Assembly: GCA_034670405.1 (NCBI GenBank)
Contig: JAXDDX010000018.1
Coordinates: 3,410,501-3,474,500, forward strand
DNA from: Hoplostethus atlanticus
Lineage: Eukaryota > Chordata > Actinopteri > Trachichthyiformes > Trachichthyidae
Direction: 5' to 3'
Length of the DNA: 64,000 nucleotides
Shown here: positions 4,747-31,148 of the stretch, piece after piece
How positions within the stretch are numbered: the first letter of the stretch is position 1
How the letters are laid out: each line of letters begins with the position of its first letter
The notes under the pieces: generated by a model
What the model saw: the letters and a program-made list of their open reading frames with translations, nothing else
Database searches by the model: none
What the model was told of the DNA's origin: nothing
Translations under genes and position numbers: made by a program

Positions 4747-4752
4747 GAGGAG
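4747..4752. other. Left target site duplication (GAGGAG)
   Basis: GAGGAG abuts the AGTAGTT terminus of the Polinton-ended segment. An identical hexamer abuts the other end at 19521-19526. Six base pairs is the usual Polinton/Maverick duplication length. Confidence 0.85.
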
Positions 4753-5264
4753 AGTAGTTAATATGACCCGCCTCCTGTCAAAAATTAAATTTATGACCCC
4801 CTGTTGATTTATGACCTGTCAATACTTGACAGTTGATTGACAGCCTGTCAAAATTAGATGTATGACCCCCCTGTTGATTGACAGCCTGTCAATATTTGAC
4901 AGTTTTGATTGATGACCTGTGTGATGTGTCATGTTGTGACCTTTTAATTATTTAATGATCCTAATGATGAGGTATTTCCGAGCGTGTGGGCGGAGGCGTC
5001 ATTTGTTCTTTTGATCCTGAATGGGGTGTATTGACCAGTGTCAAATGTGGGTCATTGGGGGTTGTGTGACACTTGAAGTGCTATGGGAAAGTGTTTTTGT
5101 TTTATGATCCTGTTGATCAGAAGCGTATTTTCGACCGGAAGGGTTAGGGATAGAAAAAAGAAAAAAGATTAAAAAAAAGAAAAAAAAAGATTTTTTAAAA
5201 TAAAAAAAAAAAGGTTAAATACGGAGACACGGAGACTAATGGCGTCATCATTTGGAAGCTCATT

Positions 5265-6111
5265 TTGGAAGCAATACCAACCGCTATGGCCGCCTCTCCA
5301 ACACCCTCACAACCCATCGAGGATCAACCCATGCCGGGTAACTTGAGCTATCAGAGCCCGGACCCTGAGAACCGATACGATGATGTGCCGGTGGTCGCTC
5401 CGAATGCGCCCGTCAAAAGAATCAAACCCCGGCGTCTGACTAGCGATGACCCGTGGATATGTTGCAAGCAGTTGTTCAACAAGACACTGCCGCAAGATGA
5501 GACAGCAAGATGTGGGTATGATGATGAAGATAAAGAAAATAAACCATGGCTGTGTGGACATGGAGAATACCTAGGCCGACAGAACCTCACATTCCTCAGA
5601 GAAGTGGAAGAAGATATGAACGGGATCGACGTTGCTGAGCAAACAGGTCAAGCGAAGACAGATGTTGGAGGGTCTGCTCAAGACTTGTCCCCACGTCTAC
5701 CTTCAGAGGCTGTAGGTCTTTTAAAGGCCACTACATGCCTATGTATCGAAAAGATTCTTCAAACAAAGCTGGAGCAAGACTCTTGGGGTTGTCAAACAAA
5801 CCACCCTAGCCAAAGGAGGCATTCTGTGTATATGGAGTACCAGCCTATTACTTTACTGATAATTTTGACAAAGTATGTGATAAGTTATTTACAAAGTCTT
5901 TCTTAGAAATATTAATACTAGTTTTAGGGCGCACTCTGAATATATATACAACACCTGACAAGATTCTTGGTGTGGCTGAAACAGTGGCTGTCGAGCTACA
6001 AGCAGAGAGCGACATTGACAAGAAACTGGTTGAGATAAAAGAAAAACTCATCACCCCCGCCAACGAATCTAACATCTTTGAAGCTGTACAGAGCTGGGTG
6101 GTATCCTTCTA
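5265..6111 (+). pseudogene. Polinton-associated ORF, left copy (frameshifted)
   Basis: An ATG at 5265 opens a frame that runs to 5906. From about 5826 the family-like reading continues in another frame and ends at a TAG near 6109. Compared with the right-arm copy, one base is missing here (CATTCTG against CATAACTG). The predicted product is about 280 residues and begins with a Pro-rich region; it includes a KENKPWLCGHGEYLGR stretch and an acidic, helical C-terminal part ending QSWVVSF. I do not recognise a function. Its position next to the terminus and beside the integrase fragment suggests one of the minor Polinton proteins. Confidence 0.5.
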
Positions 6112-6364
6112 GAGAATTGAATGAACGAAACGATGAATACAGCTGACTGACAACAAACCATATATCTATTTTTATTATTTTTTATTTCAATAATCATGTA
6201 GGGTGTATCGATGTTGTGAATAAGATTGGGTGTCTATGTATCTATTTGTACATGTATGTTGATGAATGAGCAAAAACAAAACATGTAAAAATAAAATGAC
6301 CCATTCCATAACATAATGACTGTTTGACTCCCATTCTCTTCTCATTTGGTTTACGGCATCACAC

Positions 6365-6706
6365 ATGGATAGTACCTTAGAAAAAATGTATTATGACCCT
6401 GCAAACCCAGGGTCATTTGGCAGTATTAGCAAATTACATACAGCTGTAAAAGAAAATATCGGCGTGGCTCCACCTCTACAAGATATAAAGAAATGGTTAT
6501 TTAAACAAGATGCTTATACATTACATGCACCGCTATTCAAAAACTTTAAGAGGAATAGGGTTCTAGTTAAGGGGATAGATGGACAGTTTCAGGCAGACTT
6601 GGTGGAAATGGGGCAGTATTCAGATGCAAACGATGGTGTGCGATATCTTTTGACAGTCATTGACATCTTTTCAAAATACGCATGGGTTCCCACTAATCTC
6701 GCTTCG
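6365..6706 (+). pseudogene. Polinton integrase, N-terminal part (truncated), left copy
   Basis: The frame opens with MDSTLEKMYYDP and shows the features of Polinton/Maverick c-integrases: a Tyr-rich start, YTLHAPLFKNFKRNRV, the first catalytic Asp in GQFQADLVEM and the second in VIDIFSKYAWV. This is a retroviral-type DDE recombinase that inserts the element and makes the 6-bp duplication. The frame breaks right after YAWVP, where unrelated sequence starts, so the catalytic Glu and the C-terminal chromodomain region are missing. The remnant cannot be active. Confidence 0.85.
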
Positions 6707-7255
6707 TGAGACAGGCCTCTGGCTAGTTTATTAATTTAGGCTAAATTTGCAGATACACAAACACTAGTAATTTAGCTACATAAAAACAGTGAAATAACAA
6801 GCAACATGGCAAGCCATGGGACCCTGCGATGAGTGAAAATCAAACAATAACTGATCATCTGATTATTCAATCGACAAAGTCAAAGTAGACCTGTATTTTA
6901 GACAAGGAAGGAATAATCTTGACATAGTTGAATTATCCGATCCGAAACGGCAATCTTCTTGTCAAGTGATGATGTACTGACGCACGAGCGCGACTGGGGT
7001 ACCAGGTGTGGAATTGGGCATGTTGAGCTCGAGCTGAGCTGAACGCTAACAAACATCCTCATGGATACTTGGAAAGGAAAAAAAAATCTTCACGCACTTC
7101 AGCCTATAGATGTCCTCAAATCCTCTCCATTTCACTCGTGCAGCTCATAACACCAATTTTTTTTTTGTAATGGATCTGCATGATTCACATGGGTCACATT
7201 TTCAGGTCGGAAAATTCGGAATTCCGGATTAATCCGGAAAAATCACATCCCTGAA
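6707..7255. mobile_element. Unclassified TE-like segment in left arm
   Basis: It joins the integrase fragment to the ANKMY1-like 3' region and is mirrored in the right arm at about 17317-17865. The inner end, read on the minus strand, is CAGGGATGTGATTTTTCCGG followed by a second CCGGAATTCC stretch. CAGGG is a common hAT terminus. I could not find a matching far end or an 8-bp duplication, so the class is uncertain. Confidence 0.35.
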
Positions 7256-7848
7256 CAGTGCATTGCCAAGTCATTACTGATCTGTGTTGTGTTCTCATTT
7301 GTTGCTGTTGTTTTCTGAGTCTGCCAGTAGGCCAAGTTATTGATAAGGCAGAGTAGGACATAGTTGGAACCAATGCTGTTGGGAGAGCAAAAAGACAAAT
7401 GCTGTTGCACTAAACGTCATGGTACAATCAATTTGTACCATGAGGAGTTTTGTTTATTTTTCTGTAGTGCACATCTGTAAATGACAAAAAGCAATGGGGC
7501 TGAAGTAGCTTTTGTTGAATTACCATTACAATCTGACCTAAACTAAACCAAGCATGATGTGTGGTGGATGTTCTGTGTTACACTCTGTGTTATTGTACAA
7601 TATAAAAGGACGGTTATCAAGTTGGTACATAATTTCCAAGATGCCACAAGACCACTGCTATTACTACCACCAGTACTCTGAGTTTTGTTATTACTGTTGT
7701 TTTTTATTGTACGTTTACATACATTTGTTCAACCCTCACTTCTCTCCCACTCAATTGGACAGATAGTTGTTGTTTGCGTCACTGTAATGATTAGATCAGG
7801 TTGTAGATCAGCTGTTATTAGCCATGTGAACGTGTAGTCCGTTAGGAT

Positions 7849-8285
7849 CGGTCAGTTGGAGCTAGTTTTCCTTCAGGTCAAGGTGGCTCTCTGAGACCTT
7901 CTGTGCCACGCTGAAGGGCCCGGGGGTTCTTTGGGACTTCAACTCGACACTGCTGGCTGCCAGGTACCCTCGCTGGAGGGAAAGAGAGAGAAAGGACATC
8001 ATAGTGGTTTCATGCTGTATTTACAAAATGTATCACGCATGCATACCCCTTCAGTAATAGATTGTGGGTTGATGTGGCAGGGTTGTTTGGGTTTGTTGGT
8101 GGTTAGGGCTGGTTGAGAGGCCATGTTTCCCACCTTGTACCCAGATGCACTCATCCCTGTGTCTTTCATCCCATGCTTTCAGTTTGCAGGTCTTGGAGCA
8201 ATAGAAGACTTGATGGCAGCGGCTACAGGCCATCAGCGACACAGACACAGAGCGACCGCACTGGTAGCAGAACTTAAACGGCTTC
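7849..8285 (-). pseudogene. ANKMY1-like 3' exons, left copy (frameshifted)
   Basis: The exon at 8285-8134 is bounded by CAG acceptor and GTGGG donor. It encodes a MYND zinc finger with [12 protein letters not shown], a CSRC pair and a [19 protein letters not shown] tail, the C6HC pattern of MYND domains. The terminal exon starts at 7972. Compared with the right copy two bases are missing (CAGCAGTGTCGAG against CAGCAGAGTGCCGAG), which shifts the frame early in the terminal exon. Transcription would run outward from the element centre. The closest remembered match is the C-terminus of ankyrin repeat and MYND domain protein 1 (CYQCGRSIGVRL); no ankyrin exons are present. Confidence 0.6.
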
Positions 8286-8293
8286 CTGGGAAG

Positions 8294-8299
<6 letters not shown>

Positions 8300-8321
<22 letters not shown>
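8300..8321. repeat. (CA)n microsatellite
   Basis: Short CA run just upstream of the MYND exon. The right-arm counterpart (16210-16259) is much longer, so the two arms differ in repeat length. Confidence 0.9.
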
Positions 8322-8324
<3 letters not shown>

Positions 8325-8734
8325 GATTGGCTGGTTAGTTAAAAGTTAGCTAGTTATTAAAGGGTATTTTACCCATGATACATCTGAACTGTATTTTGTT
8401 TCAGCCTTAAGTGTTATTGATTCTCCAAGAAAGACTCTCACTGTGGTCTTCAATTCATTAGATGTTTAGTAGTATTGCTTTGTTTTGAATTCCTAAAAAG
8501 TCATGATCATTGTAAATGAATGGCGGTTTTTCATGCTCCAGCACAAGCCACAGGGGTACCGGAGCCAGAGTAGATCAACAGATGAAATCAGCTACAAACC
8601 TGACAAAGTTTGACTTACGAAGATGTAGTTGGTTTAAACCTTAGTCCTCGCACCTAATAAATTAAATTGAAACTATCCGTGTGCCTTCTTTGGGTAGCTG
8701 CATGAGTATGTGTCTGTTTGTGTATGTGCAAGCA

Positions 8735-8740
<6 letters not shown>

Positions 8741-8782
<42 letters not shown>
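8741..8782. repeat. (TG)n run at inner edge of left arm
   Basis: Arm homology ends inside this run. The matching inner edge of the right arm is also an AC/TG run (15754-15791), suggesting that the arm boundary formed at a microsatellite. Confidence 0.85.
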
Positions 8783-8785
<3 letters not shown>

Positions 8786-8909
8786 CGCGCCGTGCTCTGC
8801 GCTCTGTATATTTTCCTGCTTTTTTGTCCTTTGCCAATCACATGCCTGTCGTGAGTAAACATCACAGGCCACCCTGCCTTGAAAGCCTCTTTGAGCCCCC
8901 CCACCCTCT

Positions 8910-9042
8910 TTCTGCTGTAGGCCCCCTGGGTCAGAGCATGAGATTCTGCACCCCTGGGTGACGGTGAACCTGGTGGTGGCGCTACTGGTGGGCCTGGCCT
9001 GGATCTTCATCGCCACCCGGCCCGAGATGGACTACACTGAGG
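8910..9042 (+). CDS. Orphan exon encoding one membrane segment
   Basis: A polypyrimidine tract and CTGCTGTAG acceptor precede an open stretch that reads [16 protein letters not shown] and then a hydrophobic helix ([15 protein letters not shown]), followed by TRPEMDYTE and a GTGAG donor. Base composition is GC-rich in third positions, unlike the surroundings. It looks like a genuine internal exon of a single-pass membrane protein, but I do not recognise the gene and see no partner exons. It lies in the central region of the Polinton-ended element, so it may be captured cargo. Confidence 0.4.
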
Positions 9043-9564
9043 GTGAGAAGCGCAGACACGAGGGGTGGGAGATTGGAAATTCCCTTGTCAATGTTTTGGG
9101 TGACTTAAATTGGATGGATGTATGGATGTTGCCAGTGAACACTAAATGTACTCCTTGCTTGTGGTAGATTATTTTTGTATTTTCACGAATGAAATGTGAT
9201 TTATGTTCATCTTTTGAAATACAGAGTTTTATCCAACTACAGTGATGAGCGTCTTTATTTCCTTTTGAGGAAGGTAGATGTTTGTGTGTGAATCCTGTTT
9301 GGGGATGGGTATTCTCTGTCTGTATCTGCAAGTTGTAATCAAGATATCCTACTGTCCCTGAACACAATCCCTACTGTATCCCTATACTATTCTCATTGGT
9401 GTGTCTGTGGTACTCACGTCCACTTCTACTAACTACATCTGAATAAAAGCTAAAATAAAAGTGAATATATACTACTGCTAAAACACACAACTGACAACAG
9501 TGAATTTGTTTTTGAGCGACTGGGTTTATTTGTGCTCATTCAGTAATTTAGTGAAAGAGAAAAG

Positions 9565-9815
9565 ACCCTGGACAGGTCGCCAATCCGTCACAAGGCCAAC
9601 ACAGATCGACTGTCAATATCACTTTCAGGGCAATTTAGAGTGTCCAATCCACCTGACCTGCATGTCTTTGGACTGTGGGAGGAAACCGGAGGACCCGGAG
9701 GAAACCCACGCCAACACGGGGAGAACATGCAGACTCCACACAGAGAGGAACCGTGTCCTTCTTGCTGTGAGGCCACAGTGCTAACCACTGGGCCACCGTG
9801 TCGCCCACAGGGAGA
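9565..9815 (+). repeat. Dispersed non-LTR repeat (LINE/SINE 3' segment)
   Basis: It contains the very common fish repeat blocks GGACAGGTCGCCAATCCGTC, CATGTCTTTGGACTGTGGGA, GGAAACCGGAGGACCCGGAG and GCTAACCACTGGGCCACCGT. The open frames on both strands here belong to the repeat. Confidence 0.8.
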
Positions 9816-10144
9816 CCTATGAAGCTTTCTGCTAGCCAAACACCTGAGAACCACCTTGATGATGGCTTTTACACTCGGAAAATATTCACCCACCCGTTAA
9901 TCTGAAGTCAGAGAAGCAGCTGCACACTTGAAATATATTAGCTCAGATTTAATCACTTGGGCATCAAATTCTCTGCAACAATTTTATGTGCAGATTGAAC
10001 ATTTGTGATGCCCAAGACGCCATCTGAGAAGTTGCAGTGGCAGATTCAATTTGTTCTGCCAAGTGCAAGTTTCAAGTGCGGCTGCTACCACATTCATTCA
10101 GATGTTCACTTTTACATCTGTAAATGTTTTCTGTCTTCAATCAC

Positions 10145-11128
10145 GGGTGGGTGGATATTTTCTGAGTCGTTCTCAGGTGTTTGGCTAGAAAACCTCCATA
10201 GGGAACTTCACTCCACATCTTCGGCTTTGGTCGCACAGCAGCAGAATGTCCTCATCCACCTTCTTCTGCTTCTTCTAGGGCTTGCTGACCTCTAAAAATC
10301 GAAAGAGGACAGTCAAGCGACCTTGTTGGAATTAACTACAGTGTGGAAGGACTTGACAATTCAGACACAAGTGGAGGTGAATGTGCTACCAGATGTGGAG
10401 TGGACCAGGTCATTGTTCAAGGGAGGGCCTGCAGGGCTGCTCAGGGGAACCGAAGGGGTGGCCACAGTGGCAGAGTCCACAGTGGGGCTTGCTGTTGGAG
10501 CTCCAACCTGTGAGGAGACCATTAGTACTATTAACAAGAATCACATTCATTCCTGGTTGAGTCAATTTTTCATTTTTCATTCAGAGATTCCTACCTCTGT
10601 GGTGTCCAGTGATGGAGTCCCCTCAGTTATCACAGCCAGGTGTTTTTATCTCAGAGTCCAGAACCGCCTGGGGGCTAAACACACACACACACACCATTTT
10701 AAGTTCAAGTTTCTAAGAGCAGTATTTGTATCTCCATTGTTTTTGATGTCATTTGGCAGAGACCAATATGTGCTCAAAGTGTCTGTCCTGATATTGGTGA
10801 TCAAAAACTGCACTTCTAGTGTACTAATGCCTTTTGTCATCAAATCTTGCAAATTTCACATATGGATGCACAAGGTCCCTGATCTGCTCACAGTATGGCC
10901 TAACTGGACCATTTCCCTCCTCTTCCACCCTCATCTGAGGGGGGAGTGGAGCTCCGGAGGAAATAATCTTACCTAATTTGGGGGCAGTTCCTGTCCTGTT
11001 CAGGTTCCCCATCACTCAGATTGGGGGCCATGTCTGAGTTAGGGTGAACCAAGATGGCACCTGGCTGTGCTTCAGTGGAAGTTCCCCTAGCGCTGGTGAA
11101 TGAGGACACATGCAGTTAACATATACTG
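10145..11128 (-). pseudogene. Tandem duplicate of the HIPK-like 3' end (degenerate)
   Basis: This block is a diverged copy of about 11155-12140, the last two exons of the kinase gene. Shared landmarks in the same order are the TTGCTGACCTCTAAAAA stretch, GACAATTCAGACACAAGTGG, AGGGGAACCGAAGGGGTGGC, CATTCATTCCTGGTTGAGT, and the CAGCGCTAGGGG/CTGGTGAATGAGGACACATG junction. It holds only one 51-bp repeat unit and has an interrupted frame, so it is probably non-functional or only alternative 3' sequence. Confidence 0.65.
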
Positions 11129-11339
11129 ATACCTCAGATTTGTTGTAGGTGAGTGAATGAATAGATGAATATTTTCTGAGCGTAGTTCTCAGGTGTTCTG
11201 CTAGAAAAAAACCTACATAGAGACCACAGGTCTCACTCCCCAGGTGAGGCCACAGGTCTCACTCCTCAGGTGAGACTGTGTACGAGCCAGAGCAGCAAAA
11301 TGCCCTCCTCAACCAGGAGAAGAAGCGTCTGACTCCCTT

Positions 11340-11373
11340 CTTCTTCTTCTTCTTCTTCTTCTTCTTCTTCTTG
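11340..11373. repeat. (TTC)n microsatellite
   Basis: About eleven TTC triplets. In the duplicate block near 10259-10275 only a few TTC-type triplets occur, so the run expanded after or during the duplication. Confidence 0.85.
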
Positions 11374-11463
11374 GGCTTGCTGACCTCTAAAAACCGAAAG
11401 AGGACAGTCAATGCCTCAAGTGACCTTGATTGAATCAACTACAGTGTGGAAGGACTTGACAAT

Positions 11464-14346
11464 TCAGACACAAGTGGAGGTGAATGTCTTACCAGATGTG
11501 GTGTGAGCAGCGTTTGTGTCAACCAGGTTGTTGTTTTCTATGACAACCTGGTTCACAGCAATGGCGGGTTCAGCAACAGAGCTGCTCAGGGGAACCGAAG
11601 GGGTGGCCACAACGGCAGAGTCCACAGTGGGGCTGCCCAGGGCAACCGAAGGGGTGGCCACAAGAGCAGAGTCCACAGTGGGGCTGCTCAGGGGAACCGA
11701 AGGGGTGGCCACAACGGCAGAGTCCACAGTGGGGCTGCTCAGGGGAACCGAAGGGGTGGCCACAACAGCAGAGTCCACAGAGGGGCTTGCTGCTGGAGCT
11801 TCATCCTGTGAGGAGACGATTAGTACTATTAACAATAATCACATTCATTCCTGGTTGAGTGAATTTTCAACTGTACATTATTGCTAATATATAATTGACA
11901 CTGAGCAAGCAGTGATTCCTACCTCTGAGGTGTCCAGTGATGGAGTCCCCTCAGTCACACCGAAGGACACGGAGCTGGAGTCCAGAACAGCCTTGGGGCG
12001 AGACCAACCCAGCCCCGTTGCATCCCAGCCCAGCTGGCTAGATATGCTCTCGTTGGAGGACATGTCTGGCATTGGCTGAACCAAGATGACACCTGAAGTG
12101 GAAGTTCCCCTTGCGCTGGTGAATGAGGACACATGCAGTTAACATATACTGCTAGCTCAAATTTGTTGTACAGGTACATTCAGGTACCTTCCAAAAGGAC
12201 AAACTCAGTTATGCTCATAGCCAGGAAGCAAGACTTCCCACTGGACAAGCATGCCAATCAATCAATCAGTTGATCAATTGATGAATCATTCACCTACAGC
12301 GCCTACCCTTGTCTGATAACCGATGTGCAAAGCAGCAATATAAGGACTCACGCCACACACACACACACACACACACACACTTACTGAGAGCTGTGGTGGG
12401 AGCTGCTGGCGAGGTCGCTCATTGTGATGAATGGATGTGTGAGGATTTCACTTGGTGTGATCCTCTCACTGGCATCCATCTGGAGCATTCCTTTCAGGAG
12501 GTCAACAAACTGCCTCCTATCAGTGACCTCAGCCCTGTCCTCTTCCTTCATGTTGAACTAAATTACCAAATGATGAGAAAAGTCCAACAGGAAATCAGTG
12601 GAATCATCTTCCTGACTCACTCCTGTCTTCAGCAGCTACCGCCTACTGGACTACCTACCTCTGTCAGCTCATCCAGAGATCTGAATGGGATCCTGTTGTC
12701 TGTGGACAAGTCGTCATACTCCTCTGGTGTCTAAAAGAAGGTAACGTGTATTTGAAACGTCTTATCACTTTAGATGAATTACTGATTGATACTGACATAA
12801 ATATAAATATTATTTATAATAGAATAAATATTCTCAAGAAAATGTTCAAGAGAAAATTATATTTGGTCAATAAAGCGGTGTTGTGGTACCATGAGCCTCC
12901 AGCCCTCCTGAAGATGAATAACTCCTCTGTTCTACACCCAGCATTCAGGAGGTGGTCCGCTGGCTGACCCAGGAGGTCGATGATGAATCGCATCTGGAGG
13001 CAAAACACAGGATCACATCAGTCTAGACTATCAGGACTCCATATGGTTTTATTACTTGTCTGCTGTGATCATCATCTGCTGGTCTTAGAGTAGCTACTGC
13101 TATCAATAATTAAGGGTTAGTGTAGAAAGGGAGCAGAGTCCAGTTATAGTAAGGTACTGACCACGTCATGTTCATGTTCCCCAGGGAAGAGTATTCTACA
13201 GGTGAACAAGTCCGACATCAGGCAGCCCAGCGACCACATGTCCACGGCCTCAGAAAACGGGAGCCCCAAAAGGATTTCTGGAGACCTGAGTGTGGAAGAA
13301 CAGCAGCACACCAAATCAGAAACATTGTCGTGCTTTGAGGAATAACAATACAACATGGGGAAACAGGGCAGAAATGAAACAAGGAGGCATCAGTAGGAGA
13401 ATGTCACAACAGCTGAGACTTATGTAGCCCTGAATTCAACATTTGTCCTCACAGGTATGGACAGGAAACACACACCCTGCTATGTATTTACAGTAGAAGT
13501 GAGAAACTGCAAGCCCTCTCCAGTAGATCTCACCTGTAGAAAAGGGGCTGAAGTCTAGAGCCTTGCTTAGCTTCAGTCCTCAGACGGGCCACGCCAAAGT
13601 CTATCAGCTTTACCCTCAAGGGCTCTCTCAGACGATCCGCCAGCATGATGTTGTCCAACTTCAGATCTGCGTGGATCACTCCGATGCTCTTCAGGGCCTT
13701 GAATGCTGTGGCCATCTGCAGGGACAAAGTCGGTCATAGAATATAGAGCATGAACTACAGTGGAACATTCTGAAGCTTTGAATTTACTTCCTGTCTGATG
13801 GCGTCTGTACCTGTCGGAATATGGACCTTATGACGTTTAGTCGCAGAGGGGTGAACTCCCTCTGCTCCAAGTAGTCACATAAGGCGATGTCCAACATCTC
13901 AAACACCAGACAGGTTAGACCGTTCATCTTGACGTCCTGATAGAACGTCACGATGTTGGTCTCATCCGCATCCAGACATCTGAGACGGTTCAACATGGAC
14001 AACTAGGGATACATGACAAGTTTGACATGGTGATGTTATCAACAGGTAGTTTATGTGATACACAGACTAAATCTGACCAACAGAGCAGATGTAACATAAT
14101 CTTTTGCATGACAGTAAAATCACCCACCTACTTTATGGCCATATGGTTAGATTGTATACCCTTTGGTATCTTTATGGCCAGAATCTCCCCGGTGTCCAGT
14201 TTCTCACATTTGGCTACAGTACCAAAGTACCCCTTTCCAAGGAATTCCAGTATCTTAAAGTTACTGGACTTCTTGGGTGGACAGAGCCAGGGGAGACAGC
14301 ATGCCATGTTTGCTATGGAGGAAAACTGAAAGGAAAATGGAGACAT
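11464..14346 (-). CDS. HIPK-like protein kinase gene, nine exons
   Basis: Exons by GT-AG signals (minus): about 14310-14180, 14002-13811, 13715-13534, 13285-13162, 12993-12890, 12730-12659, 12557-12385, 12115-11923, 11805-11464 (stop TGA). The product starts MACCLPWLCPPKK. It shows the Gly loop GKGYFGTVAKC, the Lys in AIKIPK, CLVFEMLDIALCDYL, catalytic loop GVIHADLKLDN, Mg loop IDFGVA, YRSPEI, DMWSLGCLMSDL and a LLKGMLQMDASERITP C-lobe. These mark the HIPK branch of the DYRK family, which is expanded in fish. The C-terminal exon is a Ser/Pro/Val-rich 17-residue repeat. Phases do not fit at exon 1/2 (the alpha-C Glu codon is not found) or at exon 5/6 (one base short at the acceptor), so the gene may be decaying or my boundaries may be off. 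It lies wholly inside the Polinton-ended element. Confidence 0.7.
11585..11788 (-). repeat. Coding 51-bp tandem repeat in HIPK-like last exon
   Basis: About four in-frame copies of a 51-bp unit encode the 17-residue motif SSPTVDSAVVATPSVPL with few changes (GSPTVDSALVATPSVAL variants). Copy number differs in the adjacent duplicate, which has a single unit. Confidence 0.85.
12354..12380. repeat. (CA)n microsatellite in HIPK-like intron
   Basis: CA dinucleotide run directly downstream of the exon 7 donor site. Confidence 0.9.
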
Positions 14347-14950
14347 GGAGAGAATAGAGAGAAAATAGTTACTTCAATCCCTTTAAATATCCAATTAACA
14401 CAACAGTTAACCTCTCAGTGTTAACTTGTCATTCAACATTGAGCGTATTCCTATCTGGTGTCAATGTTTAACATCAAGTTGGTAAATGTATCCTGCACTT
14501 TTACTGCTACACATATTAACTAAGATACTTTCCCAATATTTACCGTGCAGAGTAGAAATGGCTGAAACACTGGAGACGATGTAACACTCTACATGAAGGT
14601 CATGTTAGTGTGAACACAGTACATTACAGAAGATGGCTACTTTTAATTGAGTCAAATCATTTTTCTGACCTTTCCTCAAGTCGGAGTTTGAAGAGAGAAT
14701 ATACTTGTCTAGAAACCTGCTCAAGTCAAATCAAAGTTCACTTTAATAGAATTGAGGAGAAAATGCACAAAGTGGGTGGGGTGTGGTGGTGGGTGACTTT
14801 CTCTTGCCACTATACTAAATGGATGGGATGATAGATGTGCTGCAAAACATCATTAATGATGAGTGTTCAAAATAGTGAATAATATCCATAAAGAGATTTT
14901 CATACAACTAATAGAGTAATTACAATTATTTCAATGAAGAAATCCAATAC

Positions 14951-15086
14951 CATGTTAATGACTCCTCCTGTGTAAGTGAGTGCATGGATGACTATGTGGT
15001 CTTCAGTAATGTAGGGCCTGGTTTTTATGTTGGAAACCTCAAATCCATTTTGATCAATGGTGGGGACAATGACTGATCCAACCAAT
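14951..15086 (-). CDS. Orphan exon-like open stretch
   Basis: On the minus strand, CAACTCCACAG is followed by 136 open bases and a GTATTGG donor-like sequence. The peptide contains VGSVIVPTIDQNGFEVSN and ITEDHIVIHALTYTGGV. I do not recognise it. It lies upstream of the HIPK-like first exon in the same orientation, so it could be an upstream exon of that gene, part of another captured gene, or chance. Confidence 0.25.
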
Positions 15087-15239
15087 CTGTGGAGTTGACA
15101 TGTCAAACACACTTTAGATGTCTCAGTTAGTGAGGACAAGGCCACCGTCTTCTAAACCGAACCTCCTGCTGGGTCCCCACATGACAAGCATGTTTTAACC
15201 CATCATGTGATGAGATCTGAAATAAGGAACTAATATGTA

Positions 15240-15412
15240 TATGGTTTGATGTCAATAATAATGTTCACAATGTGTTGTCAATAATGTCTATGGTTTGATA
15301 TCAATAATAATGTTCACAATGTGTTGTCAATAATGTCTATGGTTTGATATCAATAATAATGTTCACAATGTGTTGTCAATAATGTCTATGGTTTGATGTC
15401 AATAATAATGTG
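15240..15412. repeat. 49-bp tandem repeat, about 3.5 copies
   Basis: The unit begins TATGGTTTGATATCAATAAT and recurs at 15240, 15289, 15338 and 15387 with almost no divergence, which indicates recent expansion. Confidence 0.9.
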
Positions 15413-15546
15413 TAGTGGAGGTGTAGGACAGTGTAGGGCCTCCTCCTATTCTGGTCCAGTGCATACTCTCTCTGTCTCTCTCTGGTTTCATTGGTGAGGA
15501 GGAGGCTCTCTGTCCTGCATATATTGACATCACTGACTCTTCAGCT

Positions 15547-15717
15547 TTAGGTTTTTCTCTCTTCAGTTAGATTCTGTAATATCAGTAACCCATGTCTGTA
15601 GTTGTCTTTCTGAGAAGGACACAAATCCTCATGCAACAATTCATTTTCATCCACAACAATGAATAGATGATGCTGGGTATAGAGAACATTATCATTTTCC
15701 TCTGTTGACTCTTCACC
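15547..15717 (-). CDS. Orphan terminal exon-like open stretch
   Basis: On the minus strand, TTTACATTTACAG precedes an acidic open stretch (GEESTEENDNVLYTQHH onward, with HEDLCPSQKDNYRHG) that closes with TAA at 15549-15547. It has a good acceptor and its own stop, so it looks like the last exon of something. I do not recognise the family. It sits just inside the right arm boundary. Confidence 0.3.
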   Translation of the reverse strand, partial: GEESTEENDNVLYTQHHLFIVVDENELLHEDLCPSQKDNYRHGLLILQNLTEERKT

Positions 15718-16206
15718 CTGTAAATGTAAAGAGGATGGCAGAAGATAAAAAGCAACACACACACACACAACACACACACACACACACACAAACACATGCT
15801 TGCACATACACAAACAGACACATACTCATGCAGCTACCCAAAGAAGGCACACGGATAGTTTCAATTTAATTTATTAGGTGCGAGGACTAAGGTTTAAACC
15901 AACTACATCTTCGTAAGTCAAACTTTGTCAGATTTGTAGCTGATTTCATCTGTTGATCTACTCTGGCTCCGGTACCCCTGTGGCTTGTGCTGGAGCATGA
16001 AAAACCGCCATTCATTTACAATGATCATGACTTTTTAGGAATTCAAAACAAAGCAATACTACTAAACATCTAATGAATTGAAGACCACAGTGAGAGTCTT
16101 TCTTGGAGAATCAATAACACTTAAGGCTGAAACAAAATACAGTTCAGATGTATCATGGGTAAAATACCCTTTAATAACTAGCTAACTTTTAACTAACCAG
16201 CCAGTC

Positions 16207-16209
<3 letters not shown>

Positions 16210-16259
<50 letters not shown>
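16210..16259. repeat. (TG)n microsatellite
   Basis: TG run of about 25 repeats directly before the acceptor of the right-arm MYND exon. Confidence 0.95.
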
Positions 16260-16260
<1 letters not shown>

Positions 16261-16267
16261 TTCCCAG

Positions 16268-16705
16268 GAAGCCGTTTAAGTTCTGCTACCAGTGCGGTCG
16301 CTCTGTGTCTGTTTCGCTGATGGCCTGTAGCCGCTGCCGTCAAGTCTTCTATTGCTCCAAGACCTGCAAACTGAAAGCATGGGATGAAAGACACAGGGAT
16401 GAGTGCATCCGGGTACAAGGTGGGAAACATGGCCTCTCAACCAGCCCTAACCACCAACAAACCCAAACAACCCTGCCACATCAACCCACAATCTATTACT
16501 GAAGGGGTATGCATGCGTGATACATTTTGTAAATACAGCATGAAACCACTATGATGTCCTTTCTCTCTCTTTCCCTCCAGCGAGGGTACCTGGCAGCCAG
16601 CAGAGTGCCGAGTTGAAGTCCCAAAGAACCCCCGGGCCCTTCAGCGTGGCACAGAAGGTCTCAGAGAGCCACCTTGACCTGAAGGAAAACTACAGCTCCA
16701 ACTGA
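16268..16705 (+). CDS. ANKMY1-like 3' exons, right copy (open frame)
   Basis: The MYND exon at 16268-16419 (acceptor TTCCCAG, donor GTGGGA) joins in phase to the terminal exon 16581-16705 (acceptor CCCTCCAG). Joined, they encode a MYND zinc finger ([29 protein letters not shown]) followed by a 41-residue tail ending LKENYSSN and TGA. An AATAAA lies at 16849-16854, about 145 bases past the stop. The MYND domain is a C6HC protein-interaction module. The best remembered match is the C-terminus of ANKMY1, but upstream ankyrin and MORN-coding exons are absent, so this is a 3' gene fragment. It reads outward from the centre of the element and could act as a captured last exon and poly(A) site. Confidence 0.65.
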
Positions 16706-16848
16706 CCGATCCTAACGGACTACACGTTCACATGGCTAATAACAGCTGATCTACAACCTGATCTAATCATTACAGTGACGCAAACAACAACTATCTGTCC
16801 AATTGAGTGGGAGAGAAGTGAGGGTTGAACAAATGTATGTAAACGTAC

Positions 16849-16854
16849 AATAAA
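16849..16854 (+). promoter_or_regulatory. Poly(A) signal of ANKMY1-like fragment
   Basis: AATAAA downstream of the right-copy stop codon. Confidence 0.5.
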
Positions 16855-17316
16855 AAACAACAGTAATAACAAAACTCAGAGTACTGGTGGTGGTAATAGC
16901 AGTGGTCTTGTGGCATCTTGGAAATTATGTACCAACTTGATAACCGTCCTTTTATATTGTACAATAACACAGAGTGTAACACAGAACATCCACCACACAT
17001 CATGCTTGGTTTAGTTTAGGTCAGATTGTAATGGTAATTCAACAAAAGCTACTTCAGCCCCATTGCTTTTTGTCATTTACAGATGTGCACTACAGAAAAA
17101 GAAACAAAATTTATGCAAAATGTATGCAAATAAATTGATTGTACCGTGACGTTTAGTGCAACAGCATTTGTCTTTTTGCTCTCCCAACAGCATTGGTTCC
17201 AACTATGTCCTACTCTGCCTTATCAATAACTTGGCCTACTGGCAGACTCAGAAAACAACAGCAACAAATGAGAACACAACACAGATCAGTAATGACTTGG
17301 CAATGCACTGTTCAGG

Positions 17317-17865
17317 GATGTGATTTTTCCGGATTAATCCGGAATTCCGAATTTTCCGACCTGAAAATGTGACCCATGTGAATCATGCAGATCCATTATA
17401 AAAAAACAATTTGGCGTTATGAGCTGCACGAGTGAAATGGAGAGGATTTGAGGACATCTATAGGCTGAAGTGCGTGAAGATTTTTTTTTCCTTTCCAAGT
17501 ATCCACGAGGATGTTTGTTAGCGTTCAGCTCAGCTCGAGCTCAACATGCCCAATTCCACACCTGGTACCCCAGTCGTGCTCGTGCGTCAGTACATCATCA
17601 CTTGACAAGAAGATCGCCGTTTCGGATCGGATAATTCAACTATGTCAAGATTATTCCTTCCTTGTCTAAAATACAGGTCTACTTTGACTTTGTCGATTGA
17701 ATAATCAGATGATCAGTTATTGTTTGATTTTCACTCATCGCAGGGTCCCATGGCTTGCCATGTTGCTTGTTATTTCACTGTTTTTATGTAGCTAAATTAC
17801 TAGTGTTTGCGTATCTGCAAATTTAGCCTAAATTAATAAACTAGCCAGAGGCCTGTCTCACGAAG
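17317..17865. mobile_element. Unclassified TE-like segment in right arm
   Basis: Mirror copy of 6707-7255. Here CAGGGATGTGATTTTTCCGG is read on the plus strand at the inner end, and the other end runs into the integrase remnant. Confidence 0.35.
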
Positions 17866-17869
17866 CGAG

Positions 17870-18202
17870 ATTAGTGGGAACCCATGCGTATTTTGAAAAG
17901 ACGTCAATGACTGTCAAAAGATATCGCACACCATCGTTTGCATCTGAATACTGGCCCATTTCCACCTAGTCTGCCTGAAACTGTCCATCTATCCCCTTAA
18001 CTAGAACCCTATTCCTCTTAAAGTTTTTGAATAGCGGTGCATGTAATGTATAAGCATCTTGTTTAAATAACCATTTCTTTATATCTTGTAGAGGTGGAGC
18101 CACGCCGATATTTTCTTTTACAGCTGTGTGTAATTTGCTAATACCGCCAAATGACCCTGGGTTTGCAGGGTCATAATACATTTTTTCTAAGGTACTATCC
18201 AT
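17870..18202 (-). pseudogene. Polinton integrase N-terminal part, right copy (stop codon)
   Basis: Same truncated integrase as in the left arm, reading from the ATG at 18202. The frame is stopped after GQFQAD because TTG has become TAG, directly next to the first catalytic Asp. The family-like reading continues beyond the stop to the SKYAW region and then ends at the same breakpoint as in the left arm. Confidence 0.8.
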
Positions 18203-18454
18203 GTGTGATGCCGTAAACCAAATGAGAAGAGAATGGGAGTCAAACAGTCATTATGTTATGGAATGGGTCATTTTATTTTTACATGTTTTGTTTTTGCTCA
18301 TTCATCAACATACATGTACAAATAGATACATAGACACCCAATCTTATTCACAATATCGATACACCCTACATGATTATTGAAATAAAAAATAATAAAAATA
18401 GATATATGGTTTGTTGTCAGTCAGCTGTATTCATCATTTCGTTCATTCAATTCT

Positions 18455-19147
18455 CTAGAAGGATACCACCCAGCTCTGTACAGCTTCAAAGATGTTAGAT
18501 TCGTTGGCAGGGGTGATGAGTTTTTCTTTTATCTCAACCAGTTTCTTGTCAATGTCGCTCTCTGCTTGTAGCTCGACAGCCACTGTTTCAGCCACACCAA
18601 GAATCTTGTCAGGTGTTGTATATATATTCAGAGTGCGCCCTAAAACTAGTATTAATATTTCTAAGAAAGACTTTGTAAATAACTTATCACATACTTTGTC
18701 AAAATTATCAGTAAAGTAATAGGCTGGTACTCCATATACACAGTTATGCCTCCTTTGGCTAGGGTGGTTTGTTTGACAACCCCAAGAGTCTTGCTCCAGC
18801 TTTGTATTAAGAAGCTTTTCGATACATATGCATGTAGTGGCCTTTAAAAGACCTACAGCCTCTGAAGGTAGACGTGGGGACAAGTCTTGAGCAGACCCTC
18901 CAACATCTGTCTTCGCTTGACCTGTTTGCTCAGCAAACGTCGATCCCGTTCATATCTTCTTCCACTTCTCTGAGGAATGTGAGGTTCTGTCGGCCTAGGT
19001 ATTCTCCATGTCCACACAGCCATGGTTTATTTTCTTTATCTTCATCATCATACCCACATCTTGCTGTCTCATCTTGCGGCAGTGTCTTGTTGAACAACTG
19101 CTTGCAACATATCCACGGGTCATCGCTAGTCAGACGCTGGGGTTTGA
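18455..19147 (-). pseudogene. Polinton-associated ORF, right copy (N-terminus deleted)
   Basis: The C-terminal 142 residues are open (18883-18455), including the stretch that is frameshifted in the left arm. Upstream there is a one-base insertion (GACGTTTGCTGAG against GACGTTGCTGAG in the left arm). The start codon and roughly the first 50 codons were removed by the deletion at about 19147. The two arms therefore carry different inactivating lesions. Confidence 0.55.
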
Positions 19148-19520
19148 TTTTAAAAAATCTTTCTTTTTTTTAAATCTTTTTTCTTTTTTCTATCCCTAAC
19201 CCTTCCGGTCGAAAATACGCTTCTGATCAACAGGATCATAAAACAAAAACACTTTCCCATAGCACTTCAAGTGTCACACAACCCCCAATGACCCACGTTT
19301 GACACTGGTCAATACACCTCGTTCAGGATCAAAAGAACAAATGACGCCTCCGCCCACACGCTCGGAAATACCTCATCATTAGGATCATTAAATAATTAAA
19401 AGGTCACAACATGACACATCACACAGGTCATCAATCAAAAGTGTCAAATATTGACAGGCTGTCAATCAACAGGGGGGTCATAAATCTAATTTTGACAGGA
19501 GGCGGGTCATATTAACTACT

Positions 19521-19526
19521 GAGGAG
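19521..19526. other. Right target site duplication (GAGGAG)
   Basis: Directly follows the terminal AACTACT; identical to 4747-4752. Confidence 0.85.
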
Positions 19527-23853: not shown

Positions 23854-25043
23854 GGGCCTGTTCCAAGAAGCAGGTTCAGCAAACTCTGAGTCTAACCCTG
23901 CACTCTGAGTTGATTCATTCCGAGATGGCCAAGTCTGAGTTTTCGGTTCCAGAACGGCTGATTTGAGTTAGTTCAATCAATTTTGAGTATGTTCACCTTG
24001 AGTTAAGCGCGTGCGCGACGACAATAAAAAGCCATCATCAATGGAGGTCCGATACTACGATTCACCATGGCAACCAGCAAGCAGAAGGGTCGTAAAGGAG
24101 AGGGAATTGGCGTGGGAGAGAATCGCTGCCCGAGTCAATGCGTACGTTTGAATGCAGCAGTGTATTCATTTAACATTTAACCACACTTTCTTATAATATT
24201 ACCTACATGTGAGAAAGTGGTGGAATGGTATTGGAAAAAAAATATTTTCATTTAGGTGCAATCCCACGGGCGCAAAGCGCTCTTGGCAGCAGCTGAAAAT
24301 GAAATATAAAAACATTACAGTCATTTAGCAGAGACTTTTATCCAAAGCGACTTACAAAGGTGATAGTTAACACTATGTGAGGATCGAACCCACAACCCTG
24401 AGACTGAGAGTCTAATGCTCTACCAACTGAGCTGTCTGGACCAGACATACTTCAAATGGTGTACTTGGGGTGACAAATTAGAAATGCAGATCTAGAAATT
24501 GAATTACTGGAACATAAGTTAGAGGTGGGTGCATGGTCACAGGTGAAATGTGTTGTTGGAACAATATAAAATACTAACTGTTGCTTTTGTATTTGTAGGA
24601 AATAAAGAAGACCAAATGAAATGTGTCTTTATTTGACTGCTCGGGGTGGTGGTAGCTTAATCCGTGAAGTGTAAACGGCATATTATATCTCGGACAGCTC
24701 TTCCATCCTGGACATAGAACATCTAATCGGGGTCTCAAAATCCTCTCTCGACATAAGGCTATGCGAATTACTTCCGCTTGAATATCGATCGGGTTACCGA
24801 GGAAAGGACACGCCATGTCCGACAGCTGCTTCAGGTTCAGCAGAGGGAGGAGACAGGGAGAAAGTCAGGGTTTGTTCAAGAAAACCTGCCAGCGAGCAGG
24901 TTAGGTTCACAGAGTCAGTTACCATGGTAATTGACTCAGAGTTTGAGTTACCTCTCTTTCTGGAACGGAAAACCCAGAGTTTCCCTCATCTCAGGGTTAA
25001 CAAACTCAGAGTTTTCACTAAACCCGCTTCTTGGAACAGGCCC
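23854..25043 (+). mobile_element. Second Harbinger-like element inside the LINE
   Basis: Termini are GGGCCTGTTCCAAGAAGC and GCTTCTTGGAACAGGCCC, flanked by CAG on each side (23851-23853, 25044-25046). Inside are remnants of a Myb/SANT-like protein on the plus strand: MATSKQKGRKGEGIGVGENR near 24067 and, after an intron-like gap, CNPTGAKRSWQQLKMKYKNI at about 24259-24318. The AAACTCTGAGTTT-type subterminal blocks occur at both ends. Confidence 0.75.
24312..24443 (-). repeat. tRNA-Lys-derived SINE
   Basis: Read on the minus strand it has a tRNA-like head (CAGCTCAGTTGGTAGAGCAT then GGTTGTGGGTTCGATCCTCA) and a tail with AAGTCGCTTTGGATAAAAGT and CTGCTAAATGACTGTAATGT. The second part is the tail shared by fish SINEs and L2-type LINEs. 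The mutated anticodon arm and appended tail rule out a working tRNA gene. Confidence 0.85.
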
Positions 25044-28786: not shown

Positions 28787-31148
28787 CATGTCTCAATCAA
28801 AATTGTACAGCCAGAAGTACCAAAAGGAGTGGGAGTCTGTACCTGAATTTAAAGGGTGGCTGAAGCCAGTAATTGGGGATGATTGTAGGGCATACTGTGC
28901 GTACTGCAAATCCGATATGCTTGCAAAAATGTATGACATCAAAAACATTGTGCTACAGCAAAGCATATAAATAAATCAAAACCGTACAACCCCGCAACGC
29001 AGTCTACATTACCACAGTTGGTTAAGAAAGTGGATAACTGCAAAAGCGCAGAAGCTACTATGGCAATGGCCATTGCGGAGCATTGTTCGCTGCTAGCATG
29101 CGACCATTTAGGTATGGCTTGCAAAGCTGCCTTTTCAGATTATGTGGCAGCAACAAACTTCCAAATGCACCGCACCAAGTGCACAGAAATGATTAGGGGA
29201 GTACTGGCTCCTTATTTTCTCAAAAGGGTAACATCAGATGTGGGGGATGAGAAGTTCAGTCTCCTTTTGGATGAGTCCACTGATGTCAGTGTCTCGAAAT
29301 ACTTGGGCGTGGTGATTCGGTATTTCAGTGCCAAAAAAAGAACAGTTGTGTCCACATTTCTCGGGCTGGTTGAATTGGAGGAGGGCGATGCCAGATCAAT
29401 AGCAAAGGCGGTAGTTGAATTTCTTGAGAAGTGTAACCTTAAAAAAGAGAATCTTCAGGGTATTGGCACTGATAATGCGTCAGTGATGACTGGGGTGCAC
29501 AACGGGGTGCACAAGATTTTAAAGGAAGAATGTGCATTGCCCAATTTGGTACTCATCCGCTGTGTGTGCCATTCTTTACAATTGGCTGTCAGTGCAGCAT
29601 CCAAAGAAACCATCCCTAGGAGTGTTGAGTACTTAATCAGGGAAACCTACAACTGGTTTTCGATTTCCCCAAAACGGCGGGAGGCGTACAAAGCAGTGTA
29701 TGCCACCATTAATTGTGGCCAGAAACCCCTGCAGATCACCAAAGTGTGTGCCACACGTTGGCTATCGATTGAGCCTGCCGTAAACCATATATTGAGCCAG
29801 TGGATATAACTGAAACTCCACTTTGAGTTGACCAAGGCCAGTGAGCATTGTTACATGGCAGACGTGCTCCACGCCATGTACATTTGTCGTCAATTATGTG
29901 TCTGAGCTCTTGTTTATTGGCTCTTGTTTATTTGATACACTTATTTGTCTTAGCTCGTTTATTTGGTTCACTTATTTGTCTTAGCTCTTGTTTATTTGAT
30001 TCTCTTATTTGTCTCATTTGTTTAAGATAAAGTAGGTTGCTAACTTATTGCACTCTTAACTTAACACTAGTTATGCTCTTAGTTGCTTGTTTAGGAAGGA
30101 AATGCACTTACGATTTCTGGTGACTAGTAGTTTTCTTGCCTACCTATGTTGAATGCACTCATTGTAAGTCGCTTTGGATAAAAGCGTCTGCTAAATGACT
30201 GTAATGTAATGTAATGTAATGTACATGGACAAGACCAACTATGTCTACCTGACATTCTTGAAATCAATCCTGTCCGACGTACAAGTTGCAGTGAAGTCAT
30301 TTGAGGGAGAGCAAACAGATCCTGTCAAGCTTTTGGACAATCTGGTACACCTCTTAACATCAATTTGCATCAGAGTAGTCAACCCTATGGCAAAAATTGA
30401 TGTACTGAAGGATGCCATTGATGGACATCTCAGTCCATCACCATACCTCGGGTACCTTTTCGAGAGCATGGTGTCCCAACTCAGTCTTGCGCCAGAGGAT
30501 GAAAAGGTCATTCGGAGACGGTGCATCAACTACATTGTTGCTTTAAGCAAGGAGCTGCAATCTAGGCTTCCAGACAACCTAGAAGCCTTGCGAAACATGG
30601 CCTTGTTCAGTGTTAAGGAAACACTAAAGCACAATAAAGGCACCACTGAAATTATTAAAGTAGCTGAGCTACTGGGGTACCAGCCCGAAACAATTGACAA
30701 AATTGTTTCCCAATGGAGAAACATCCATCTGTTGAGGTGGGACTCAACTGAAAATACAGTCGAGTTTTGGAGTGAAGTGAATAACTACACGGACTCTTCC
30801 GGATCAAATCCATTTGAAGAACTGTGCAAAGCTGCACTCGCTGCCCTCTCCTTGCCACACTCAAATGCGGAGGTTGAACGGCTGTTCAGCCAAATGAGTG
30901 TGGTCAAGTCAAAGTTAAGAAATAGAATGTCACTGCACACTCTCAACTCCATACTCCTGGTGCGGTATGGACTGAAGCTGGCTGGTGAAACCTGTTACCA
31001 GCATAAACTACCAAGTGAAGTTCTGCAGCAGTTTGGCACCACAGCAGCATACAGCTTCAAGGCCACTCCATCCTCCTCTGCTGGTTCCAGCTCAGTGACA
31101 ATGCAGTTGGACAGTGAAGATGAAGAGGATTACCTTGCCAATCTATGA
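28787..31148 (+). pseudogene. hAT transposase, broken by frameshift, stop and SINE
   Basis: Coding parts in order: an N-terminal zinc-finger region (MSQSKLYSQKYQKEWESV with a CRAYCAYC pair) from 28787; a frameshift near 28960; the catalytic part at 29018-29809 with FSLLLDESTDVS, GIGTDNASVM and IRCVCHSLQLAV; an in-frame TAA at about 29807-29809, after which the same frame continues for about 22 codons; a SINE at 29884-30219; then the C-terminal part to 31148, with the hAT dimerisation motif LSLPHSNAEVERLFSQMS and an acidic tail DSEDEEDYLANL. This family cuts and pastes DNA with 8-bp duplications. Three lesions make it inactive. Confidence 0.85.
29884..30219 (+). repeat. SINE/L2-type insertion with (TGTAA)n tail
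   Basis: It is flanked by ATGTACAT (29876-29883 and about 30219-30227). Its 3' end reads AAGTCGCTTTGGATAAAAGC, GTCTGCTAAATGACTG and then several TGTAA units, the tail type of eel UnaL2/UnaSINE and related fish elements. The 5' half contains an internal CTTATTTGTCTTAGCTC repeat. It interrupts the hAT transposase gene. Confidence 0.8.

Follow-up and report, generated by a model that had tools for sequence, protein, structure and literature searches.

The window examined here, a stretch of 64,000 nucleotides of the fish Hoplostethus atlanticus (assembly GCA_034670405.1, contig JAXDDX010000018.1, positions 3,410,501 to 3,474,500), contains a mobile unit that has the ends of a Polinton, or Maverick, and carries host DNA between them. 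Units in which Polinton ends enclose a mosaic of host DNA, about 9 kb long, have inserted whole at five sites in this genome, and a fold-back form, as found in the window, has inserted at two sites at least. These units are very probably non-autonomous Polintons that exchanged their core for a mosaic of host DNA and were moved in trans, a fold-back form having arisen secondarily and transposed as well.

The unit opens with AGTAGTTAATATGACCCGCC at 4753 and closes with GGCGGGTCATATTAACTACT at 19520; in a longer reading, both ends are AGTAGTTAATATGACC..GGTCATATTAACTACT. The initial annotation had described AGTAGTT and AACTACT termini with a perfect GAGGAG duplication outside them, and both are present (Table 1). 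At fixed positions and with the base composition of the window, the chance of one 6-bp match is 3e-4. According to their description in PMC8097293, vertebrate Mavericks have (AGT)2//(ACT)2 ends, 6-bp target duplications and lengths of 12,723-24,620 bp, and their terminal repeats measure 46-1,447 bp. The inverted arms of the window unit, given earlier as about 4.0 and 3.8 kb, measure 4.03 kb (4753-8782) and 3.75 kb (15770-19520) and are about 1% divergent. Their alignment of 3,692 columns holds 57 raw substitutions, or 37 (about 1.0%) without two misaligned patches; in addition, the right arm has a deletion of about 222 bp and the left arm about 74 bp of extra subterminal repeat. From the terminus inwards, each arm runs from the integrase end of a Polinton through an interspersed repeat of 560 bp to the 3′ end of ANKMY1, and between the arms lie the last exon of TMEM237 and exons of a HIPK-like kinase. 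The window contains no N. Fold-back artefacts occur in long-read data, and arms that are 99% alike could have come from a false haplotype join or a fold-back chimeric read. However, about 37 substitutions, together with several indels, separate the two arms, and the same junction occurs at C73 in another site with another duplication, which makes an assembly artefact extremely improbable.

A genome search with the Polinton end returned at least 63 matches (302 candidates, 40 scored). The same Polinton break, followed by the same DNA, is found at six sites: the window, C73, C114/C909 (taken as a single site), C12, C18:3031695 and C76. Both ends were found at five of the six, and all five carry a perfect 6-bp duplication, different in each case, which shows that whole units were inserted. 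Transposition of the whole unit had been proposed from the window, together with a search for the same arm-centre junction elsewhere. This junction is indeed present at C73:2364386-2371308 with its own duplication, AATGTA, and three more sites hold cargo between Polinton ends, again with their own duplications. AATGTA is also found on both sides of an ordinary Polinton of 14,634 bp (C120:442165); flanks and insertions differ between C73 and C120, and target preference or chance is possible. Host blocks with Polinton copies might instead have spread by chromosomal duplication, with no transposition of units, since C114 and C909 have flank in common and the kinase unit and TMEM237 are multi-copy in any case. 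The sequences that border the Polinton ends nevertheless differ among the five sites, each with its own perfect duplication, and segmental duplication is accordingly very improbable. Polinton ends with relatives at other sites, each bearing its own duplication, mark the unit as a non-autonomous Polinton derivative, while long inverted arms, a unique centre and movement as a unit (window and C73) mark it as a fold-back element.

Table 1. Features of the window unit (window positions) and complete copies at other sites.
Feature	Position	Strand	Details
Mobile unit, window copy, fold-back	4753-19520		14,768 bp; AGTAGT/ACTACT termini; duplication GAGGAG
Left target-site duplication	4747-4752		GAGGAG; from the sequence
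Right target-site duplication	19521-19526		GAGGAG; from the sequence
Left arm, Polinton integrase-end part	4753-6689	+	terminus, subterminal repeats, broken accessory open reading frame (ORF), integrase N-part
ORF with truncated rve-type integrase	6320-6709	+	without second Asp and Glu of D-D-E triad
Interspersed repeat, left arm, separating Polinton from ANKMY1 DNA	6690-7253		about 560 bp
Captured ANKMY1 3′ end, copied arm	7254-8782	-	last two exons with introns
ANKMY1 exons, left arm	about 7852-7974 and 8134-8285		limits by eye
GT microsatellite holding fold-back junction	8738-8782		from alignment with asymmetric copies and C73
TMEM237 last exon	8921-9042	+	Pfam PF15383; limits by eye
Kinase unit, itself multi-copy in the genome	9119-15606
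HIPK-like kinase exons	12390-14307	-	2 of 6 joins out of frame in simple model
ANKMY1 3′ end with CA microsatellite, arm taken as original	15770-17312	+
ANKMY1 exons, right arm	16268-16419 and 16581-16705		limits by eye
Interspersed repeat, right-arm copy	17313-17877		mirror of 6690-7253
Right arm, Polinton integrase end	17878-19520	-
Fold-back copy	C73:2364386-2371308		6,923 bp; duplication AATGTA
Asymmetric copy	C114/C909		15,914 and 16,320 bp; duplication TCCCAC
Asymmetric copy	C18:3031695-3046762		15,068 bp; duplication ATCATT
Asymmetric copy	C76:1138170-1158017		19,848 bp, including an interruption of about 4.9 kb; duplication ATCTAT

The Polinton part of the arm breaks off at 6689|6690, the point up to which all 15 ordinary Polinton loci fetched (L006-L020) match the window and beyond which none does. 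Its integrase ORF has relatives among 48 of 51 candidates at ≤1e-3, with a best identity of 54%; the longer relatives run on into the second Asp and Glu motifs, before both of which the window ORF ends. Pfam did not directly recognise this truncated integrase, and a PDB search with it gave chance matches only. In a protein search with the accessory ORF piece, none of 47 candidates passed. Viral contigs scanned with the Polinton terminus gave no matches, and scans with the integrase fragment (seven stretches) and the integrase alignment (33 stretches) gave none that was confirmed. The absence of polymerase and capsid genes claimed for the unit is borne out in the left arm and centre, where a six-frame Pfam scan detected only zf-MYND, TMEM237 and a protein kinase above the curated cut-offs, and no PolB, ATPase, protease or capsid. 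Pfam likewise identified no core Polinton genes in the far region of the C18:3031695 copy. As a control, the integrase core and chromodomain were recovered from one ordinary Polinton locus; this sensitivity control covers integrase only, without polymerase or capsid. In four of the 15 ordinary loci an uninterrupted frame of 373 amino acids with the D-D-E motifs is found, so that a helper Polinton is plausible, and complete Polintons are plausible candidates for supplying the integrase.

The first 560 bp or so after the Polinton break are an interspersed repeat rather than gene DNA, with at least 31 further places in the genome at 83-94% identity (40 of 90 candidates scored). The repeat lies exactly between the break and the captured ANKMY1. 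A further locus, C283:104641-105100, matches this repeat only and was excluded from the family. The MYND-finger fragment annotated in both arms is there (zf-MYND, 2e-12) and can be refined to the 3′ end of ANKMY1, the best PDB match being ANKMY1 9ijj; the arms also hold the truncated integrase. A native ANKMY1 at C64:2669197-2670589 matches window positions 7254-8782 only, and its introns are kept in the element. Native and element copies agree at 93% and 99% in two pieces and, in a second comparison, at about 95% across 1.2 kb and at 98% in the inner 187 bp. An upstream ORF at the native locus contains MORN repeats, and an ankyrin match there falls below the cut-off. Past the GT repeat the native locus has no element match, nor has it one in 7 kb on the other side, and the reading of ANKMY1, kinase and TMEM237 as one contiguous host block was therefore dropped. 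Between cargo copies the Polinton piece diverges by 1.3-2.6% and the compared 460-bp repeat piece by 0.4-3.3%, while the native ANKMY1 is about 5% away; the capture of ANKMY1 thus looks older than the spread of the copies.

The centre had been annotated as a HIPK-like kinase gene. Kinase exons are found there, open in the window and with consensus splice sites, and a protein search is in agreement (868 of 2,525 candidates passed; among the 120 proteins listed, most are fish HIPK-like, best identity 52%). A complete intact gene was rejected, as exon lengths and open frames break the frame at two of the six joins, and a TMEM237 exon is also present. The kinase unit gives at least 92 matches (22 of 1,718 candidates scored) at a minimum of 18 further places on 16 contigs; among the matches listed, none of these 18 places recurs among the integrase-end matches. 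Its copies are mostly 87-96% identical in large pieces, and two lie about 10 kb apart on C99. TMEM237 also exists in several genome copies (42 matches). On C19, upstream TMEM237 exons lie about 3.6 kb from a kinase unit (the last exon is not among the matches listed there), and the last exon adjoins such a unit on both C113 and C121, so that the TMEM237 exon and the kinase unit may have been captured as a single block. The C113 and C121 loci have no integrase-end match and were excluded as family members.

The open kinase exons and consensus splice sites could suggest that the units spread because the kinase is useful to the element or its host, as for the cargo of nematode Mavericks. Variable columns by codon position (six exons, five copies) number 17/11/8, however, and 1/0/0 in a seventh exon compared in three copies; C114 was left out of this count because its centre is noisy. 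A third-position excess is thus absent, leaving no sign of purifying selection in these few columns. Single exons have changed in length in four copies and, as noted, two of six joins are out of frame in the simple model, all of which makes selected cargo improbable. The proposal that a block of host DNA had been moved holds to the extent that such DNA was inserted between Polinton ends; the cargo itself is a mosaic of different loci, consisting of fragments and apparently neutral passengers.

Other copies of the family are asymmetric. In C18:3031695, C76 and C909 the sequence continues beyond the TMEM237-side GT repeat for 4.4-9.1 kb (interrupted in C76 and C909) with no inverted arm, and the asymmetric copies (15-20 kb) close with a further Polinton end, whose terminus is of another type. 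Roughly the outer 3.1 kb in C18:3031695 correspond, with 81-91% identity, to the far end of one ordinary Polinton. The integrase-side arm is contiguous with the kinase unit or centre in C18:3031695, C76 and C12; most simply, the right arm of the window is therefore the original and the left arm its inverted copy. The fold-back junction lies inside a GT microsatellite common to the window and C73, which also agree in a base beside the junction that C18:3031695, C909, C76 and C114 lack. A 12-sequence tree places the four arms of the window and C73 fold-backs in one clade (support 0.989), within which the copied arms group weakly (0.77). C73 has lost further inner parts. As the window and C73 have the same junction and different duplications, the fold-back form was inserted at two or more sites, and the shared junction, shared base and arm clade are most simply explained by one fold-back event that preceded at least two insertions. 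It had been suggested that host genes moved as fold-back elements. Units did move, but the fold-back looks secondary, three of the five complete sites being asymmetric.

The fold-back may have arisen from the asymmetric form through a switch from one GT/CA microsatellite to another in inverted orientation 7 kb away; the integrase-end arm would thereby have been copied, inverted, into the place of the far Polinton end. Template switching at microsatellites may also have assembled the mosaic cargo, which would travel as a passive passenger. Integrase, and perhaps also the protein-primed polymerase that Polintons encode (PMC6431247), would be supplied in trans by complete Polintons.

Several points weigh against this account. 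All sites were read in the assembly of one individual of a single species, and helper activity and the mode of replication are putative. The absence of core genes is based on Pfam, which overlooked a truncated integrase that is actually there. The direction from asymmetric to fold-back form is a deduction; support within the fold-back clade is 0.77-0.89, and of the variable columns one follows the arm and one the element. In C18:3031695 the match to an ordinary Polinton stops short of the inner 1.3 kb or so of the far region. C114 and C909 have the left flank in common and agree on the right for about 29 bp before diverging, and the centre of C114 (C114:638764-646573) is only 80-85% identical to the window while the C114 ends and C909 reach 95-98%, the divergent centre being probably noisy assembly. 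At C12 one end is recognisable, with no second end within 27 kb on the other side, and the site is not counted as a complete sixth insertion. Finally, C76:1138170 and C12:1644332 have the other terminus type at the integrase end. This suggests exchange between the two Polinton ends, and recombination of this kind complicates the history of the family.

The same product could have been reached with the rearrangements in a different place. Host DNA may have been trapped between Polinton ends by deletion and rearrangement, and folded back, within the chromosome, after which a helper integrase moved the units. The interspersed repeat at the capture junction is in favour of such an origin, as is C12, which holds the integrase end, the repeat, the ANKMY1 part and the kinase unit. 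Its left limits (C12:1634412; window 9328, plus a 35-bp match at 9119) recur in the kinase loci on C566 and C5, and C12 may therefore be a chromosomal intermediate or the result of later recombination with a resident kinase copy. This origin nonetheless requires one place to have been rearranged several times before transposition began, and C12 can equally be read as a damaged insertion; its probability is judged to fall somewhat short of even.

More tentatively, the cargo and fold-back forms might have arisen on linear Polinton DNA outside the chromosomes while it replicated by protein priming and strand displacement, and helper particles may have packaged and delivered them before integration. 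In adenovirus type 12, a linear DNA virus with protein-primed replication, symmetric recombinants (SYREC) combine the viral terminus with cellular DNA in inverted arrangement. By analogy, a displaced Polinton strand could have primed on itself at inverted GT/CA repeats. In its favour are the protein-primed polymerase that Polintons encode, the position of the fold-back at inverted repeats, and unit lengths that fall within the size range reported for Mavericks at four of the five complete sites. C73 is shorter than that range at 6.9 kb, so movement does not require packaging, and C12 is a possible chromosomal intermediate; the extrachromosomal origin is on balance rather unlikely. The units resemble SYREC in joining a viral-type terminus to cellular DNA in inverted arrangement, but they are integrated with target duplications, have a unique 7-kb centre and belong to a fish genome. 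The literature search found no paper on this parallel.

Two other features of the window lie outside the unit. Positions 28937-31148 contain hAT-like transposase ORFs, broken around the tail of a long interspersed nuclear element (LINE) of UnaL2 type (30154-30204). At 24315-24433, on the minus strand, a tRNA-like stretch adjoins a UnaL2 tail and is probably a short interspersed nuclear element using the LINE tail.

The favoured reading, that of non-autonomous Polintons with host cargo, can be set beside known systems. Pack-MULEs consist of transposon ends that carry fragments of host genes. The present units share the arrangement of transposon ends around host gene fragments with these and with Helitrons, both of which belong to other superfamilies with other transposition chemistry. 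Helitrons are described as capturing genes in PMC6431247. Compared with vertebrate Polintons or Mavericks as described in PMC8097293, the end type, the 6-bp duplications, the size (window and asymmetric copies) and the position near one end of the integrase, which is truncated here, are alike, whereas here host DNA occupies the place of the core, no core gene was found, the arms are about 4 kb rather than 46-1,447 bp, and C73 is 6.9 kb. Nematode Mavericks carry wosp and krma cargo and host-acquired genes including kinases (work of Widen, as given in PMC10680173). They are similar in holding host-derived genes, kinases among them; they are distinct from the fish units, in which an intron-containing genomic mosaic, seemingly passive, stands in place of the core. 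No description of a vertebrate Polinton with host cargo or in fold-back form was found among the titles and abstract openings of the literature searched, which has most subscription journals outside it.

Vertebrate Polintons thereby gain a role as carriers of gene fragments, moving host DNA where their own core genes are not found. The question of a replicating extrachromosomal phase in vertebrate Polintons also becomes testable. If the cargo and fold-back forms did arise on extrachromosomal Polinton DNA, the units would be fossils of a virus-like Polinton phase in a vertebrate and would point to a route by which host genes may pass between cells or species.

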